NCBI GenBank assembly: GCA_035527515.1
Contig: DATLAJ010000071.1
Span: 1 to 45,343 of the forward strand
Source: a bacterium
GTDB lineage: Bacteria > B130-G9
DNA length: 45,343 nucleotides
Direction of reading: 5' to 3'
In this document: in pieces, positions 12,275 to 44,998 of the stretch
Numbering within the stretch: position 1 is the stretch's first letter
How the letters are laid out: every line of letters begins with the position of its first letter
The notes under the pieces: model-generated
The model's input: only the letters and a program-made list of their open reading frames with translations
The model's database searches: none
What the model was told of the DNA's origin: nothing
Made by a program: the position numbers and the translations under genes

Positions 12275-12305
12275 GGGCGAATGTCGGCAAGCCGCGGCAG
12301 TCCGG

Positions 12306-12342
12306 CCTTCGCAGCCACAGCTGCTATGGCGGAGTAGGCTTG
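12306..12342 (+). repeat. Palindromic repeat, intergenic copy
   Basis: This copy begins CCTTCGCAGCC and ends GGCGGAGTAGGCTTG, matching both arms of the repeat at 17232-17264 and 17482-17514, but with an 11 nt centre in place of 5 nt. It lies between the pgeF stop and the promoter of the beta-helix gene. Confidence 0.65.
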
Positions 12343-12422: not shown

Positions 12423-12509
12423 ACCTTTTGTTATGGCTTTTTATCGTTCTGTTCGTCTTGTTCATAAGCAGTGAATAAACGCTGCATCGGCTATCAGAAG
12501 GAGATAGAT

Positions 12510-14183
12510 ATGAAAAGAGCTATTCTGGCCTGCGTCGTAATTGCGGCCTCTGCCTTACTGCCGATCGTGGTGACCGCGGAGCCAACCATTACAATCTACA
12601 CGGATGCTCAGACGTACCAATACGGCGACACTATCGAGGTGAGCCTGGCCGCACTGAACCTCGGATCGGGAGTGTCCGTTGACTTATACGTCGGTCTTCT
12701 GACGCCAGACGGCGGTCTCTATACGCTTAGCCCCTATGGACAGAGCGGCTGGTCGGGGAACCTCGAGGCGTGGATTCCCGACATCTACGTGCCACCTGGC
12801 TTTGCTATGGACCGGACGCCCTTCTGGTGGTTCGATGTGCCCTGCTCGATGCCGCCAATCGGCGGGGCGGGTCACTACGACTTCGCGGCGGTCCTGACGC
12901 GAGCGGGCAGCTTCGACGAGTGGGTCTGCAACGCGAGCTTTGCGCCATTCGCAGTTCGTCTCTGGCCTGCATCTCATTACTACGTTGACGGGGAAACAGG
13001 GGACGATTCAAACGACGGGTCTGAAAGCTCGCCCTGGAAAACGATAACACATGCGCTCGCATCCGCGCTCAACACCCCTGCCACCATCCACGTGGCCGCC
13101 GGAACGTACTCTGCCTCGACCAACGGCGAGCGGTTTCCACTCAGAATGAAGAGCTGGGTGTCTCTTACAGGTGATGGCCCTAACACGACGACTCTGGACG
13201 CGGAGGACTCGGCCTACCATGTTATCTTCTGCTACAACGCGAACGAGCTGACTATCGAGGATTTCACCATCACTGGTGGCAACGCTAATGGGGATTCATC
13301 CGCGCACTCGTCCGGCGGCGGGATATACTGCTACGAAAGTTTGCCGACTATTGTGAGCAACACGATCACGGCCAACACTGCCTACTCGGGCGGCGGCATA
13401 TACTGCTGGGACAGTTCCCCAATCATCACAAACAACGCGATCACGGACAACACTTCCGAGTACTACTGCGGCGGAGGGATATTCTGCTACTACTATAGTT
13501 CGCCTGCAATCGAGAACAATGCGATCGAGGCCAACGCTGCCGTCGCCTACGGCGGCGGGATCTACTGCGACTGTTACAGTTCGCCAACGGTCCGAAACAA
13601 CACGATCACGGACAACACTGCCGAGGCGTGCGGTGGCGGGATATACTGCTACTACACTTCACCGATGATCCAGAACAACGCGATCGAGGACAACACTGCC
13701 GGCTACGGTGCCGGGGTCTTCTGGTATGGAGGCTCACCAACGGTTAGGAACAATGCGATCCTGTACAATAGCGCCGGGGGGTGCGGCGGCGGGATCTACT
13801 GCTACTACAGTTCACCGACCATCGAGAACAACACAATCTTGGACAACACTGCCAACACCAACGACGGCGGCGGGATATACTGCTACAAGAGTTCGCCGAC
13901 GATCATCAACTGTATCATGTGGGGCAACAGCGGTGATCTTTATCACTGCTACGCGACATATTGTTGCATAGAGGAGAACGATCCGGGCGAGGGCAACATC
14001 CACTACGATCCGATGTTCGTCGAGGGGCCATTCGGCGACCACTACTTGCACCCCGATAGCCTGTGCATAGACGCAGGAAGCCAATCTACTGAAGAGGCAG
14101 GCCTCTCTGATCGGACAACGCAGGCCGACAGCACGCCGGACACCGGCACGGTCGATATGGGCTTCCATTATCCGATTCCGTAA
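12510..14183 (+). CDS. Secreted beta-helix protein with Cys/Tyr-rich repeats
   Basis: The ATG at 12510 follows AAGGAGAT at ideal spacing, and the product opens with a clear signal peptide ending near VTA-EPT. Residues ~25-150 form a beta-sandwich-like module that resembles the partial protein at the left edge of the window. Next comes the DUF1565-like entry to a right-handed beta-helix (YYVDGETGDDSNDGS, then PWKTITHALA and TIHVAAGTYS). Eight successive coils of ~28-31 residues follow, built on GGGIYCY..SSPTI.NN.I..N.A. The sixth coil is degenerate (GAGVFWYGGSP). The end has LCIDAGSQ and DMGFHYP. 557 aa. The stacked Cys and Tyr would form ladders along one face. No catalytic site is apparent; a surface or glycan-binding role is likely. 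Confidence 0.85.
   Translation: MKRAILACVVIAASALLPIVVTAEPTITIYTDAQTYQYGDTIEVSLAALNLGSGVSVDLYVGLLTPDGGLYTLSPYGQSGWSGNLEAWIPDIYVPPGFAMDRTPFWWFDVPCSMPPIGGAGHYDFAAVLTRAGSFDEWVCNASFAPFAVRLWPASHYYVDGETGDDSNDGSESSPWKTITHALASALNTPATIHVAAGTYSASTNGERFPLRMKSWVSLTGDGPNTTTLDAEDSAYHVIFCYNANELTIEDFTITGGNANGDSSAHSSGGGIYCYESLPTIVSNTITANTAYSGGGIYCWDSSPIITNNAITDNTSEYYCGGGIFCYYYSSPAIENNAIEANAAVAYGGGIYCDCYSSPTVRNNTITDNTAEACGGGIYCYYTSPMIQNNAIEDNTAGYGAGVFWYGGSPTVRNNAILYNSAGGCGGGIYCYYSSPTIENNTILDNTANTNDGGGIYCYKSSPTIINCIMWGNSGDLYHCYATYCCIEENDPGEGNIHYDPMFVEGPFGDHYLHPDSLCIDAGSQSTEEAGLSDRTTQADSTPDTGTVDMGFHYPIP
13308..13900 (+). repeat. Intragenic tandem repeats encoding beta-helix coils
   Basis: About eight degenerate units of roughly 84-93 bp share GGCGG(C/G)GG(G/C)AT(A/C)TACTGCTAC near their start and AACAACGCGATC or AACACGATCACG near their middle. 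The nucleotide similarity between units is high enough for slippage or recombination to change the coil number. Confidence 0.7.
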
Positions 14184-14232: not shown

Positions 14233-14632
14233 TCCCTGAGACAGGTCGATGGTGCAATAGGGGAAAGGAGGGAGGCGTTGGCCGCCCCAAATCCCCCGAA
14301 TGAATTCGGGGGCTAGGATCCATGGTAGCCCAGAAGCATCGCCTCGGCTAAAGCCGGGCGATGAGCCTTGCCGGGTGCCGCTTGCGCCGGGCGATGAGGT
14401 GGCCCAGGCTGGGGAGCTTTTTCCTCCGAATCACCGTATTTTAATGCGGTGATATAGACGGCTCTCATTATACTAACACCCGAATTCATTCGGGTGGCCT
14501 GGAGATGGCTCGGCGTCCTCCACCTCCTCCCCGGAATCCCGATCTGAAGAGGAAAGGAAGAGATGTTGGCTGCCACGGATCCCCGAATTCATTCGGGTGG
14601 CCTGGAGATGGCTCGCCGTCCGACACCATTTC
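14233..14632. other. Non-coding repeat island between convergent genes
   Basis: About 400 bp with no plausible gene. It holds a palindrome CCCCCGAATGAATTCGGGGG (14293-14312), two nearby copies of GCCGGGCGATGAG (about 14355-14400), and a 40 bp direct repeat described separately. No T-tract terminator is evident, although the first palindrome could act as a weak bidirectional terminator for the two convergent flanking genes. Confidence 0.6.
14479..14621. repeat. 40 bp direct repeat pair carrying CCCGAATTCATTCGGG palindromes
   Basis: Copies at 14479-14518 and 14582-14621 differ at one base (CTCGGCG against CTCGCCG). Each begins with CCCGAATTCATTCGGGT, which extends the same palindrome family as the element at 14293-14312, then GGCCTGGAGATGGCTCG. 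They are 103 bp apart. The pair looks like a REP-type or small mobile repeat. Confidence 0.75.
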
Positions 14633-15943
14633 TCACAACAAGAGCGCCTCCTGCTTCTTGTCCGCGCGCTGCTTGGACCATCTTCTGTAGTCGCGCAGGT
14701 TGAAGTCCTTCCGCGAGTTAGGGGTGCCGCCCATGGCGAGGTCCTCAACGCCACACAGGGGGAAGCTGCATGTCAGGCACGCACCGGTGCAGGCGGCGGC
14801 CGGGCCGAACCTTGGCCGTTTACTGCCGTCGTGGTCGATGTAATAGCCGTATCTGCCGGAAAGGTCGCGCACATAGATAGGGATGTCGATGCCCTCGCAA
14901 TTCTGGCAGCCGGCCATGAACTCAGCGTTCATGCCGCGGCTTTTCACTCGCTTGAGCTTGCCCGAAGCCGTTTTGACCATCGTCTCAGTGCTCACGTTCT
15001 CAAACTCCATGCACAGCGCGAAGGAGAGCTCGTTTTGCATACAAAGGTCCCTCAGGTAGGAGAATAGCTCCCGGCGGTAGTCAATGTGAGCGTGCAGGAA
15101 CCCGTCGATCCGGTCTGTAAATAGCTTCTCGTAACCAAGCCTCGGCGCTGGGTTGAGCGAGTAGAGCGTCTTCAACATCTCGCTCTTGCTGTGGATAGGG
15201 ATATCGACGCAGCTTGCGATGATATGGTCTGCGCCGCAGAGCTTCGCCCGCTCGATGAGGTGCTTTAGCTCGCGCCTGTCGTCAGTTATGAACGGCAGGA
15301 TGGGGTCGATGCGGCAGACGGTGTGGATTTTCTGCCGGCCCTCACAAGGCCACGACGAGAGCCGCCTGAGGCTGTAGAAAAGGTCATCGGTCGAGGCGCT
15401 CGAGCCTGGGGAGAGCCGCCTCCTGAGCTCGTCGTTCACCGTTGTGATGGAGACCTGGGCGAATGAGTGCCGATTCTGCGCCAGAAGACGTATCACCTCG
15501 TCGGGGATAATGCCCTTGGTTACCACGTCGATCGGGACGCCTCGTTCAGTGAAGACGCGGACTATCCTCTCGGAGAGCCTGTATCGAGAGTTGATCGGCT
15601 GGAAGGGGTCCGTCACGGGCGACAGGTAGCCGCACGCCGCCACATCGAGCGAATCGAGCTGCCTCGCCACGTTGGCGTCCATATCCTTGAAGACCGTGAC
15701 CAGCCCCATCCGCCGATACAGTTTGAAATAGCCCCAGTTCATGGAGTTGGCGTAGCAGTAGAGGCACCCGAAATCGCAGCCGTTGTATGGGTTTATCAGC
15801 ATCCGCTCGGCGGTGCACTCTCGTTTGCCAGGCCACCAACCGTGCAGTTCCTTCTTTGACGAGACTACGATGTGCGGCGCCGGCTGCCGAAGGACAGGAA
15901 TCTGCGTCATAGCGCCGGCCATCCTTGGATTAACGCTCATCAT
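14633..15943 (-). CDS. SPL-like radical SAM protein with extra C-terminal cysteines
   Basis: The cluster motif is C-D-F-G-C-L-Y-C-Y-A-N, preceded by NPYNGC and followed by the VFKDMDANVARQLDSL and GYLSPVTDPFQPIN segments typical of the spore-photoproduct-lyase-like/Rv2578c radical SAM group. Family members are of unknown function apart from SPL itself. The C-terminal third carries a second cysteine set, C-Q-N-C and then C-T-G-A-C-L-T-C with a further Cys four residues on, enough for an auxiliary Fe-S cluster or zinc site. The start is uncertain: TTG 15967, ATG 15943, 15940, 15922 and 15910 are all in frame. I list 15943 (436 aa), which overlaps the end of cca by 14 bp, so it is translated after cca. 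Confidence 0.82.
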   Translation of the reverse strand: MMSVNPRMAGAMTQIPVLRQPAPHIVVSSKKELHGWWPGKRECTAERMLINPYNGCDFGCLYCYANSMNWGYFKLYRRMGLVTVFKDMDANVARQLDSLDVAACGYLSPVTDPFQPINSRYRLSERIVRVFTERGVPIDVVTKGIIPDEVIRLLAQNRHSFAQVSITTVNDELRRRLSPGSSASTDDLFYSLRRLSSWPCEGRQKIHTVCRIDPILPFITDDRRELKHLIERAKLCGADHIIASCVDIPIHSKSEMLKTLYSLNPAPRLGYEKLFTDRIDGFLHAHIDYRRELFSYLRDLCMQNELSFALCMEFENVSTETMVKTASGKLKRVKSRGMNAEFMAGCQNCEGIDIPIYVRDLSGRYGYYIDHDGSKRPRFGPAAACTGACLTCSFPLCGVEDLAMGGTPNSRKDFNLRDYRRWSKQRADKKQEALLL

Positions 15944-17315
15944 CTTGCGCAGCGAGCCGACGCGCAAGCGCTAGCTCCGCCTCCTTGCCGTCCACGTGCC
16001 CGTCGAGCTTCGCCATCAACACACTCCTGAGAATCTCGCCCACGCTCGGGCCCTCGGGGACGCCCATACCCTTAATGTCGTCGCCGTTGATCTCAAGTCG
16101 CACCTTTTGCAGGAGCGACCAATATCGCTCGAACGCCATACCGCTGGCCTTGGCGCGCCGTGAGGCAACGATCACTACTGCCGCCTCGGCCGAAATGCCG
16201 GAAAACAGCTGCCAAAGCTCGCTGTCCCGCGCATCCCGAAGCCCGTCAAGCTTGGACAGAATCTCGCTCTGGCGTGTTACGAACTCCTCAACTATTGCGG
16301 CCTCATTTCTGTCCAGATCGAAAATCGCGAGCGTGCTGGGCAGCTTATGCTCGGGCACGTTTCCCATGAACAGGAGCAGCCTCACCAGCCATTTCCGGTA
16401 GTCATCGGGCAGGCCGTCTTTCGTGGCCTCCTCGAGCCTCTCGAGCCGCTGGAGGATGGGAAGCGCATTGTGGAACAGGGACAAGTATGGCGAGATGGAG
16501 CTCAGAACCGATAGCTGAGCCAGGTCCCAGACCGCGCCCCACGGCACCTCCTCGACAAAAAGCGATCTCAACTCGTCCGTCAGCCTGTGAGGTGAAATGG
16601 TGCTGAAGCAGCCGTCGCAAATGGCATCTTCGGCGAGCTCGAGCGTTGCGTAGTCAATAACGAACTTGAACCGGTTGGCATACTTGATCGCCCTGATGAT
16701 TCTGGTCGGGTCGTCCACGAAACTTCTCTCGTGCAGAACTCTGATCAGACCGATCTCAATGTCCTTGAGCCCGCTGTGGGGGTCGAAAACATCCCCAACC
16801 CCCTCCGGCGCAAGTGAGGCGCAGACGCAATTGATGGTGAAATCTCTCCGCCTCAGGTCCTCCTCGACAGTGCCCGGCTGCACCTTGGGAAGAGCACCTG
16901 GGCTGTCGTAGGTCTCGGTCCTCGCCGTGGCGATGTCGATATGGAAGCCGCCCTCAAAGGGAAGCGTTGCCGTTGCGAAATCTCGGTTGAAAACAGGTCG
17001 CTTGATGGCATGAACAGCCAACTCCTCGGCAATCTGCATCGCATCGCCCTCGATCACGACGTCTATGTCAAGACTCTGCCAGCCCAGCACGATGTCGCGC
17101 ACAAGGCCGCCCACGACGAAGGCACGCGCCGAGCGCTCGCTGGCGGTCTTGCCGAGCAGCTCAAGCAGATTTAGGACAGCGCCGGGCAACGACGAGTTCA
17201 TCAGCGGCAGAACATTATTGATCTTGGAGATGCCAGGCCTACTCCGCCGAAGCGGCTGCGAAGGCCGGGCCCGTGTATTCCTTGACTGTTGTTTGGTCAT
17301 CGCTTTTACTTTCAT
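15930..17315 (-). CDS. cca: tRNA nucleotidyltransferase / poly(A) polymerase family (CCA-adding type)
   Basis: Class II nucleotidyltransferase motifs appear in order: FVVGGLVRDIVLG (GG at 69-70), the catalytic LDIDVVIEGDA (Asp83, Asp85), RRRDFTINCV and DDPTRIIRAIKYANRF. It adds or repairs the 3' CCA of tRNA, or only C or A if the activities are split. There is no HD domain. From ATG 17315 the protein is 461 aa with an unusual ~38-residue basic extension before the fold; starting at the Met codon at 17201 would place GG near residue 31, as in typical enzymes. Part of the extension (residues 18-28) is encoded by a palindromic repeat. Neither start has a good ribosome binding site. The radical SAM gene overlaps its end. 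Confidence 0.88.
   Translation of the reverse strand: MKVKAMTKQQSRNTRARPSQPLRRSRPGISKINNVLPLMNSSLPGAVLNLLELLGKTASERSARAFVVGGLVRDIVLGWQSLDIDVVIEGDAMQIAEELAVHAIKRPVFNRDFATATLPFEGGFHIDIATARTETYDSPGALPKVQPGTVEEDLRRRDFTINCVCASLAPEGVGDVFDPHSGLKDIEIGLIRVLHERSFVDDPTRIIRAIKYANRFKFVIDYATLELAEDAICDGCFSTISPHRLTDELRSLFVEEVPWGAVWDLAQLSVLSSISPYLSLFHNALPILQRLERLEEATKDGLPDDYRKWLVRLLLFMGNVPEHKLPSTLAIFDLDRNEAAIVEEFVTRQSEILSKLDGLRDARDSELWQLFSGISAEAAVVIVASRRAKASGMAFERYWSLLQKVRLEINGDDIKGMGVPEGPSVGEILRSVLMAKLDGHVDGKEAELALARRLAAQDDER
17232..17264 (-). repeat. Palindromic repeat, copy at the 5' end of cca
   Basis: Read on the minus strand this 33 bp copy differs from the one at 17482-17514 at only two bases. Its core GCCGCTTCGGC is a hairpin, and GCCT/AGGC outer arms extend it. 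In the cca frame it encodes PSQPLRRSRPG; in the amidohydrolase frame the equivalent copy encodes PLQPLRRSRLG, the same reading frame. Confidence 0.75.
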
Positions 17316-17388
17316 GGGAAGTTGCAGTGAACATCACTATATTTTGAACAAAGTATTTGTGCGACCACAATATGTCAAGGAGCGCGGC
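17316..17388. promoter_or_regulatory. Divergent promoter region between cca and the amidohydrolase
   Basis: The 73 bp gap is AT-rich relative to its surroundings. On minus a perfect TTGACA (17378-17373) stands 17 bp from TACTTT (17355-17350), a weak -10. On plus TTGAAC (17344-17349) stands 18 bp from CAATAT (17368-17373). Both are only candidates. AAGGAG at 17377-17382 is the ribosome binding site for the GTG start at 17389. Confidence 0.35.
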
Positions 17389-18927
17389 GTGCTGATTGTA
17401 GATGCAAACCTCGAGCTGGCAGGCTTTGGTGAGGGACTCTGCTCGATCCGAATCAAAGGCCCACGAATTGAGAGCATCCAGCCTTTGCAGCCGCTTCGGC
17501 GGAGTAGGCTTGGCGCCTCGTCCGGCGTCGAGCTGGACGACGACGTGATCGACGCTCAGGGCAGGATCGTTCTCCCCGGCTTCATAGACGCCCACGCACA
17601 CCTTCTCTCCGGGGAGTTTGACACTCTGACGGTCGATTTTGCCGCAACAGCCGACGTGGATGAGATGCTCTCGATGGTCCAACAGAAGGCAGCCGAACTG
17701 GAGCGGGAGAAGTTCGTGGTCGGCGTCAACTGGGATGACTCTAAGGTTCGAGGTATCGAGAGACTGAACCGCGATCTATTGGACGCAGTCGGCGTCCCGA
17801 ATCCTATCTTCCTACAGCGAGTCTGCGGGCACATAGCTCTTGTCAACTCACGTGCGCTCGAGGTCCTGTATTCAGCGCCCAACTTTCGTGAAATCAGCTC
17901 GCACGTTGACCGTGAACGCGGTGAGATAAGTGAGGATGCCATTCATCTGATGCGGCGGTTAGTGCCGATCGAGCATTCTGACCGCGTCAAGGGAGTGAGG
18001 CGGGCAATTGACGAGGCGCTGTCGCTCGGGGTGACGAGCATCTGCGAGATGCACGCTTTGCCGAATCAGTTCGCCGCGCTTCGGGACGCTGCAAGTGATA
18101 TCGAGATATTTGTCTATATGGACTACATCTCGGAGACAAGTTTCGCAGAGTTGGAGCGGCTCGAGCCATCGGAGCTCTGCCGGCCTGTCGGGCTCAAGCT
18201 AGTGGCGGATGGCTCTATCGGCGCCCGCACTGCGGCGGTTTCGAGGCCATACTGGGGCACAGACGAGCATGGCGAGCTGCTACTATCGAGGGAGAAGACC
18301 GCTGCCGTGGCAAGAGAGGCTTTGGCACGAGGCGTCCAGCTCGCCGTTCATGCGATCGGCGACAGGGCGATTGACGCTGTGGTTGGGGCGTTCGAGGATG
18401 CTGGGGTGAGTTCTTTCCCCGATCACAGACACCGAATCGAGCATCTGGAGATTCTGCCCGAGCCGCTTGATGAGCACTTGGAGCGGCTTTGCCGCAGTGG
18501 GCTTGTGGCGTCGATGCAGCCGGGCTTCATCACGACTTGGGGGCGGCATGAGGATGGCCTTTACGGTGAGCGATTTGGGCCTAGGTGGGCCGAAACGAAC
18601 GCATTTGGCCCGTTGGCGAGGGCAGGCGTGCCTCTTTGTTTTGGCTCAGATTCAATGCCCATTGGCCCGATCTATGGCCTTCGGGGAGCAGTGAGGCATC
18701 CTTTCCCGGACTTTGCGATGCCGCTTGCCGACGCAATCAGTGCGCACACCGCCGGCGGGGCATTTGCCGTCCGACAGGAGGCTCGCCTGGGCCGCATTCA
18801 AGAGGGGATGGCCGCGGACCTCGTGGTCCTCACGTGCAGGGATGCGAGCGAGCTGCTCGAGTCGCACGTGGCGGCGACAATCAAGGGTGGGCGAGTGGTT
18901 TGTGCAGCTGAGGGTGTGGCTTCTTAG
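17389..18927 (+). CDS. YtcJ-type metal-dependent amidohydrolase
   Basis: The GTG at 17389 lies six bases after AAGGAG and gives the usual opening beta strand (MLIVDANLEL); a longer frame to 17065 only reads antisense through cca. Landmarks of the amidohydrolase_3 family follow: VIDAQGRIVLPGFIDAHAH (metal ligands His69 and His71), a GLKLVADGSIGARTA segment with the bridging-ligand region, HAIGDRAID, HRIEHLE and FGSDSMPIGP. Members hydrolyse amide or cyclic amide bonds in the cytoplasm; the true substrate is rarely known. Residues 32-42, just before the VIDAQGR strand, are encoded by an inserted palindromic repeat. Length 512 aa. nagZ begins 13 bp downstream. Confidence 0.88.
   Translation: MLIVDANLELAGFGEGLCSIRIKGPRIESIQPLQPLRRSRLGASSGVELDDDVIDAQGRIVLPGFIDAHAHLLSGEFDTLTVDFAATADVDEMLSMVQQKAAELEREKFVVGVNWDDSKVRGIERLNRDLLDAVGVPNPIFLQRVCGHIALVNSRALEVLYSAPNFREISSHVDRERGEISEDAIHLMRRLVPIEHSDRVKGVRRAIDEALSLGVTSICEMHALPNQFAALRDAASDIEIFVYMDYISETSFAELERLEPSELCRPVGLKLVADGSIGARTAAVSRPYWGTDEHGELLLSREKTAAVAREALARGVQLAVHAIGDRAIDAVVGAFEDAGVSSFPDHRHRIEHLEILPEPLDEHLERLCRSGLVASMQPGFITTWGRHEDGLYGERFGPRWAETNAFGPLARAGVPLCFGSDSMPIGPIYGLRGAVRHPFPDFAMPLADAISAHTAGGAFAVRQEARLGRIQEGMAADLVVLTCRDASELLESHVAATIKGGRVVCAAEGVAS
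17482..17514 (+). repeat. Palindromic repeat inserted in frame in the amidohydrolase gene
   Basis: This is the plus-strand partner of the copy at 17232-17264, with two mismatches over 33 bases. It encodes residues 32-42 of the amidohydrolase, in a loop where the family normally passes directly to the V-I-D-A strand. The insert keeps the frame and introduces no stop. The two copies are in opposite orientation and flank the divergent start region. Confidence 0.75.
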
Positions 18928-22009: not shown

Positions 22010-22085
22010 ATACCAGATGCGGCGGCGCTTGGAGCGCCAGTCATCGGTGTCGATTTTTGGTTCAGACCTCATTCTGTTCCGGCTA

Positions 22086-42118: not shown

Positions 42119-42126
42119 CACACATA

Positions 42127-42184
42127 AGGATGAAGGCGGAAGGATGAAGGCGGAAGGATGAAGGATGAAGGCGGAAGGATGAAG
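42127..42184. repeat. 14 bp minisatellite downstream of rtcB
   Basis: Units of AGGATGAAGGCGGA recur at 42127, 42141 and 42162, with a half unit at 42155 and another at 42176. It lies in the 117 bp gap between the convergent rtcB and aroB genes. No gene or terminator is seen there. Confidence 0.88.
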
Positions 42185-44925: not shown

Positions 44926-44998
44926 GTAGGGGCGGTGCTTGCCCCGTCCTATCTGCATTTGGCAAATCATAAGGAGGGTGCAGCAGGCAGCACCCCTA
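44926..44998. repeat. MITE-like element with GTAGGGGCGG end
   Basis: The left end GTAGGGGCGGTGCTTGCCCC pairs imperfectly with a right end GGCAGCACCCCTAA. No coding capacity. It is of the same kind as the elements at 2072-2135 and 45058-45160. Confidence 0.6.

Follow-up and report, generated by a model that had tools for sequence, protein, structure and literature searches.

A short REP-like palindromic element that lies mostly between genes and occasionally in frame within them

A repeat found on both sides of a divergent gene start is very probably a short, non-autonomous mobile element of the REP/MITE type, which resides mostly in intergenic regions and is occasionally tolerated in frame within a gene. 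It has the look of a tiny genomic parasite to which certain proteins are tolerant. It was studied in a stretch of 45,343 nucleotides (hereafter the window), equal to contig C71 in a genome of 3.47 Mb and 183 contigs. The observations behind this reading are the dispersal of the repeat, its insertion relative to homologues, the exact length of the inserts and their frame, their relaxed constraint, the conserved mismatches of the hairpin and the occurrence in several phyla.

Two copies around a divergent start region

A search of the window located the core of the repeat, GCCGCTTCGGCGGAGTAGG, at 17490-17508 on the forward strand and at 17238-17256 on the reverse strand, and again, with three mismatches, at 12320-12338 (+). 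The complete 33-bp copies occupy 17477-17509 (+), where TCCA is followed by a 29-nt imperfect hairpin (51.6 bits with the covariance model R2 described below), and 17237-17269 (-), where the same kind of hairpin follows CCCG (53.3 bits). Together they form the arms of a 42-nt inverted repeat, 88 % complementary and 209 nt apart, in agreement with a sequence-only reading that had described two 33-bp copies in opposite orientation flanking a divergent start region. The two base differences counted there are true in its own 33-bp register; counted over the inserted unit itself (TCCR plus 29 nt), the differences are three.

The forward copy lies in a gene for a YtcJ-like amidohydrolase (17389-18927, +; Amidohydro_3, PF07969, E=1.7e-65), which starts at the GTG at 17389 with AAGGAG upstream. 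Its closest named relative, 84 % identical, belongs to a Candidatus Coatesbacteria MAG (QMNL01000075, treated as the same record as contig C101 of genome G001). The copy encodes residues 31-41, QPLQPLRRSRL; the insert claimed earlier is thus genuine, and only its numbering (32-42) has to be shifted. The reverse copy encodes residues 12-22 in the N-terminal extension of a cca-type nucleotidyltransferase (15930-17300, -; PolyA_pol, PF01743, E=2.2e-23). Translation of both copies confirms that they are read in one and the same frame, as had been noted, and both give the peptide PLRRSR.

Two genomes were compared at this locus, one of the same genus (G001) and one of the same family (G002). The start of cca had been called uncertain, with its copy perhaps in the leader, and this doubt is fair: the N-terminal stretch is too short for its codon-position pattern to count as proof of translation. 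Moreover, REPs in N-terminal coding regions may really be extragenic and the genes misannotated (PMC3733652), a warning that applies to the cca copy. Because the cca gene of G002 begins MGRMQS.. in register, the ATG at 17300 is the likely start, and alignment with G001 and G002 makes it likely that the N-terminus is coding. The divergent intergenic region at 17301-17388 has 6 differences in 80 positions in G001, fewer than the flanking genes, and is likely to be a shared two-way promoter region.

In the amidohydrolase alignment, G002 reads IAEI-GTSPPSAMSSP-IIDA where the protein of the window reads IESI-QPLQPLRRSRLGASSGVELDDD-VIDA and is 11 residues longer. The same-family gene is without exactly 33 nt, or 11 codons, at the insert site, which bears out the earlier proposal that a dispersed palindromic element was inserted in frame and that its residues should be absent from homologues. 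For cca, the BLOSUM62 protein alignment with G002 contains a single gap, which spans the repeat and is exactly 11 residues long, and the shared DNA anchors CAGTCAAG and CTGGC give a gap of 33 nt; this gap is taken from the protein alignment and the anchors, MAFFT on DNA alone having aligned the two genes without a long gap. If the unit is TCCR plus 29 nt, a length difference of 33 nt at the genic sites is compatible with no target duplication, the empty sites being much diverged. The AlphaFold model of the amidohydrolase (mean pLDDT 92) is weak at about residues 33-52, a stretch flanked by the strands 26-32 and 53-55. The insert at 31-41 is therefore predicted to fall in a low-confidence loop of an otherwise confident model, as the surface loop proposed earlier would have it.

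It is hardly credible that the additional residues are no more than lineage-specific protein sequence of the ordinary kind, with the repeat a coincidence or an assembly artefact. Loop lengths do vary in this enzyme family. However, three matches to the core were found in the window where shuffling predicts 0.02, the difference is exactly 33 nt in both genes, and the same sequence recurs between genes and in other phyla.

Both extra blocks are also present in G001, each agreeing with the element in 24 of its 33 positions (32 of 33 for each copy of the window). Since the congener carries both, the two genic insertions are older than the divergence of the two genomes. In the inserted codons, nonsynonymous and synonymous changes amount to 0.27 and 0.27 in one gene and to 0.26 and 0.20 in the other, compared with pN/pS values of 0.23 and 0.35 for the codons outside, and the insert residues thus appear to evolve neutrally, under relaxed constraint. 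In the rest of the genes the two lineages have similar rates (149 versus 129 unique changes). Although these rates are similar, 17237-17269 and 17477-17509 are near consensus here and decayed in the congener, and gene conversion or re-copying is possibly behind the better preservation.

The same figures bear on whether the genic copies stem from one local insertion, followed by inverted duplication or gene conversion, and not from two independent insertions. This is unlikely. It would agree with the inverted arrangement over 209 nt, with only two to three differences in 33 positions and with the parallel state of the copies, both near consensus here and both at 24 of 33 in a congener whose gene rates are similar. 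Yet other copies in this genome are just as near consensus, the flanks past the unit are barely similar, and the exact absence of 33 nt at both sites suits two clean insertions.

Architecture and dispersal of the element

The unit consists of TCC[A/G], 12 nt, a variable centre and a further 12 nt, and its conservation is sharply bounded at TCCR and GTAGGC. It measures 33-42 bp, with a hairpin of 29-38 nt made up of GCCTTCGYAGCC, the variable centre and GGCGGAGTAGGC; outside, the flanks are near random save for weakly preferred bases directly adjoining. Three arm mismatches (T-T, G-A and A-G) are retained in almost all copies. Covariation is seen at the apex of the hairpin and in an alternative helix, GYAGC/GCTRC (0/500 shuffles), whose Y-R pair is switched on both sides in nine rows. 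Five of the six reading frames of the unit are open. An Rfam search returned no family in the window; outside it, the only results were tRNAs and a single miRNA match below threshold. No relevant paper emerged from a literature search by sequence fragments of the element.

A first covariance model, built from six copies, detected at least six strong copies in the window's genome. The second model, R2, was built from 25 copies from several phyla and finds at least seven in the same 3.47 Mb and at least two in G001, these counts being lower bounds since the census scored the best 150 candidates per genome. Within the same candidate limit, the family members G002 and G003 gave none at E<=0.1. Few or no other copies would have undermined the sequence-only reading; this is not the case, with at least seven in all, yet the copy number is low. 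Five of the seven lie outside genes. Among them is the third variant, correctly called intergenic and now placed at 12301-12339 (+) instead of 12306-12342, a 39-bp copy (R2 62.0 bits) between a YfiH/PgeF-like gene and a gene for a tandem-repeat protein. Its centre is 6 nt longer than that of the genic copies, its complementary outer flanks (-28.8 kcal/mol) enclose it in a larger palindrome, and an orthologous copy occupies the same place in G001 (C209). By alignment with C259 of G001, which has a 60-bp insertion with an element copy, positions 22057-22058 of the window are the corresponding empty site. At the place of the copy on contig C21, a same-family genome is without the element, with much diverged flanks, and the place in G001 that corresponds to the copy on C42 is heavily rearranged.

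Further afield, the exact two-half pattern was present in 7 of 386 genomes and the reversed control pattern in none. R2 gave 3 to 17 matches (lower bounds) in each of six other genomes (G319, G187, G153, G291, G042 and G096) and none in two further ones, again among the best 150 candidates per genome; the weakest matches, above all in G096 and G291, may be due to chance. These six genomes have only the domain in common with the window's genome. As G153 and G291 are the only members of their phylum among the genomes compared, the element is found in at least three phyla, and it is nearly unchanged in sequence across them.

Of 43 distinct copies examined, four are genic with support from homologues and about 39 lie outside genes as far as could be judged, the remaining open reading frames over copies being apparent spurious frames or upstream extensions on inspection. 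The two genic copies from other phyla are located in a cytosine methyltransferase of G153, with an exact 11-residue insertion relative to three viral homologues, and an SPL-family protein of G042 (a relative of spore photoproduct lyase), which is 19-20 residues longer at the site than all 11 homologues compared. In the gene of the SPL-family protein, a GTAGGGCACGA/TCGTGCCCT palindrome encloses the 39-bp unit. The four genic copies are not all translated in one frame: two give PLRRSR and two SLRSR, so no peptide is conserved. The idea that selection acts on a fixed peptide was discarded, the methyltransferase and SPL copies being in another frame and the insert pN/pS about 1.

These data also weigh on a coloniser of coding sequence similar to the Rickettsia palindromic elements (RPEs), for which the translated peptide would be the main survival strategy. 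Two in-frame copies with the same peptide in one gene pair speak for it, together with the in-frame copies in two genomes from other phyla. It is nevertheless quite improbable, given the share of copies outside genes (five of seven in this genome, about 39 of 43 in total), the two frames, with no peptide in common, in which the four genic copies occur, and the neutral evolution of the insert residues.

Nested palindromes and mobilisation

Copies of the element often sit within larger palindromes. Their flanks are more complementary than shuffled pairs (mean -14.0 vs -10.9 kcal/mol; 0/500), and a GTAG-type motif occurs within 30 nt of 10 of the 43 copies, compared with 1.8 % at random places. 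Since the outer flanks vary from copy to copy and resemble other palindromic repeats, they were left out of the element, and the idea that they are part of one fixed unit was not adopted. At five loci (L173, L174, L175, L187 and L188), copies have further hairpin repeats in the apical loop, as if palindromes had been mutually inserted.

Other repeats were seen in the window. At 12471-14183 lies the gene of a large, beta-helix-like and probably secreted protein, in which a unit of some 26 residues (GGGIYCY..SSPTI.NN.I..N) is repeated in tandem about eight times. Another palindrome, CCCGAATTCATTCGGG and its relatives, is clustered downstream of the tandem-repeat protein (14295-14319, 14470-14524 and 14582-14627). 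Palindromes of the GTAGGGGCGGGGCTTGTCTCCGCCC type at 2073-2101 and 44926-44954 are like the GTAG palindromes around the element in other genomes, and a short tandem repeat based on AAGGATGAAGGCGG extends over 42126-42184.

The chemistry of transposition and the enzyme are what we infer from this arrangement. The nesting of copies in hairpin loops points to single-stranded hairpins as targets, in the manner of IS200/IS605-type chemistry. The short size, the unpaired tag, the mismatched hairpin, the dispersal and the empty sites agree with a non-autonomous element that is mobilised in trans. The element would spread at low copy number, chiefly between genes, and would be moved as single-stranded hairpin DNA by a trans-acting enzyme, most likely of the HUH (IS200/IS605-like) type, often landing in the loops of other palindromes. 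A few insertions would hit exposed loops or N-terminal tails. Since the genic inserts are 33 or 60 bp, both multiples of three, and five of six frames are open, the host protein would gain 11 to 20 residues, followed by neutral evolution.

A more specific version, in which a classical REP is mobilised by a REP-associated tyrosine transposase (RAYT) that the genome itself encodes, is somewhat unlikely. The architecture is the same, with a tetranucleotide followed by an imperfect, mismatched hairpin; each of the four Coatesbacteria genomes searched has a Y1 transposase, and about a quarter of the copies are in GTAG-tagged palindromes. However, the tag is TCCR and not GTAG. The single Y1 gene of the window's genome, a RAYT-like gene on C146 (L064, 3114-3623), has a different GTAG-tagged repeat on both sides, GTAGCCGTGTGCGAAGCACAACGG and GTAGCCGCAGGCGTCAGCCTGACGG, which forms a REP family of its own. 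No element copy was found within about 1.5 kb in 36 Y1_Tnp loci (115 kb), and linkage to a Y1 transposase was rejected at this range. Finally, G096 has a strong copy, yet no Y1 match.

Comparison with known palindromic elements

Most known cases of very small palindromes inserted in frame come from Rickettsia, Wolbachia and a handful of species rich in REPs. In the present comparisons, proteins from unrelated phyla have cleanly gained exactly 11 or 20 residues relative to their homologues, so that a simple census could test both how well proteins tolerate such insertions and whether hairpins are placed within hairpins. A unit of less than 45 bp common to several phyla also raises the question of a common mobilising enzyme. 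We tentatively consider a third REP-like super-family, TCC[A/G]-tagged and common to several phyla, that would target hairpin loops in nested palindromes and sometimes add a protein module of 11-20 residues; the present data leave this somewhat short of an even chance.

The ends of IS200/IS605-type elements and the MITEs derived from them combine a tetranucleotide with a mismatched hairpin. The element has both, and a relationship may be supposed on this likeness, no transposase with such ends having been identified here.

REPs of the GTAG and CGTC super-families are palindromes of 20-40 bp with an unpaired tetranucleotide at one end; they are mostly extragenic, with few intragenic copies, and occur in several phyla (PMC3733652). 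The element is likewise an imperfect palindrome, mainly extragenic with few genic copies, from several phyla. In contrast to GTAG REPs, its conserved 5' tag is TCC[A/G], and unlike CGTC REPs, including RPE-4/6, it has no conserved CGTC in its flanks. It further differs from REPs in its low copy number here, in having no flanking RAYT among the 36 Y1_Tnp loci and in arms that are almost letter-identical between phyla.

RPEs are about 150 bp long, encode a conserved peptide and are nearly half located in open reading frames (reviewed in PMC10969869). The resemblance to them proposed by the sequence-only reading extends to the in-frame insertion of a palindromic element into unrelated, unbroken genes, seen against homologues in four cases. 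It does not extend to a close likeness as coding-sequence coloniser: RPEs measure about 100-150 bp, whereas the inserts are 33 or 60 bp, carry their own tag, use two frames, are outnumbered by intergenic copies in the proportions given above and are shared across phyla. The WPE-like regions of Wolbachia, about 170-840 nt long, also occur in frame in genes with no premature stops (PMC4224334); the element shares the in-frame genic insertion with them but is a unit of 33-42 bp. It is thus called REP-like here, closer to REPs than to RPEs, and is placed in neither named super-family, since its tag is different and no copy lies near the 36 Y1_Tnp loci.
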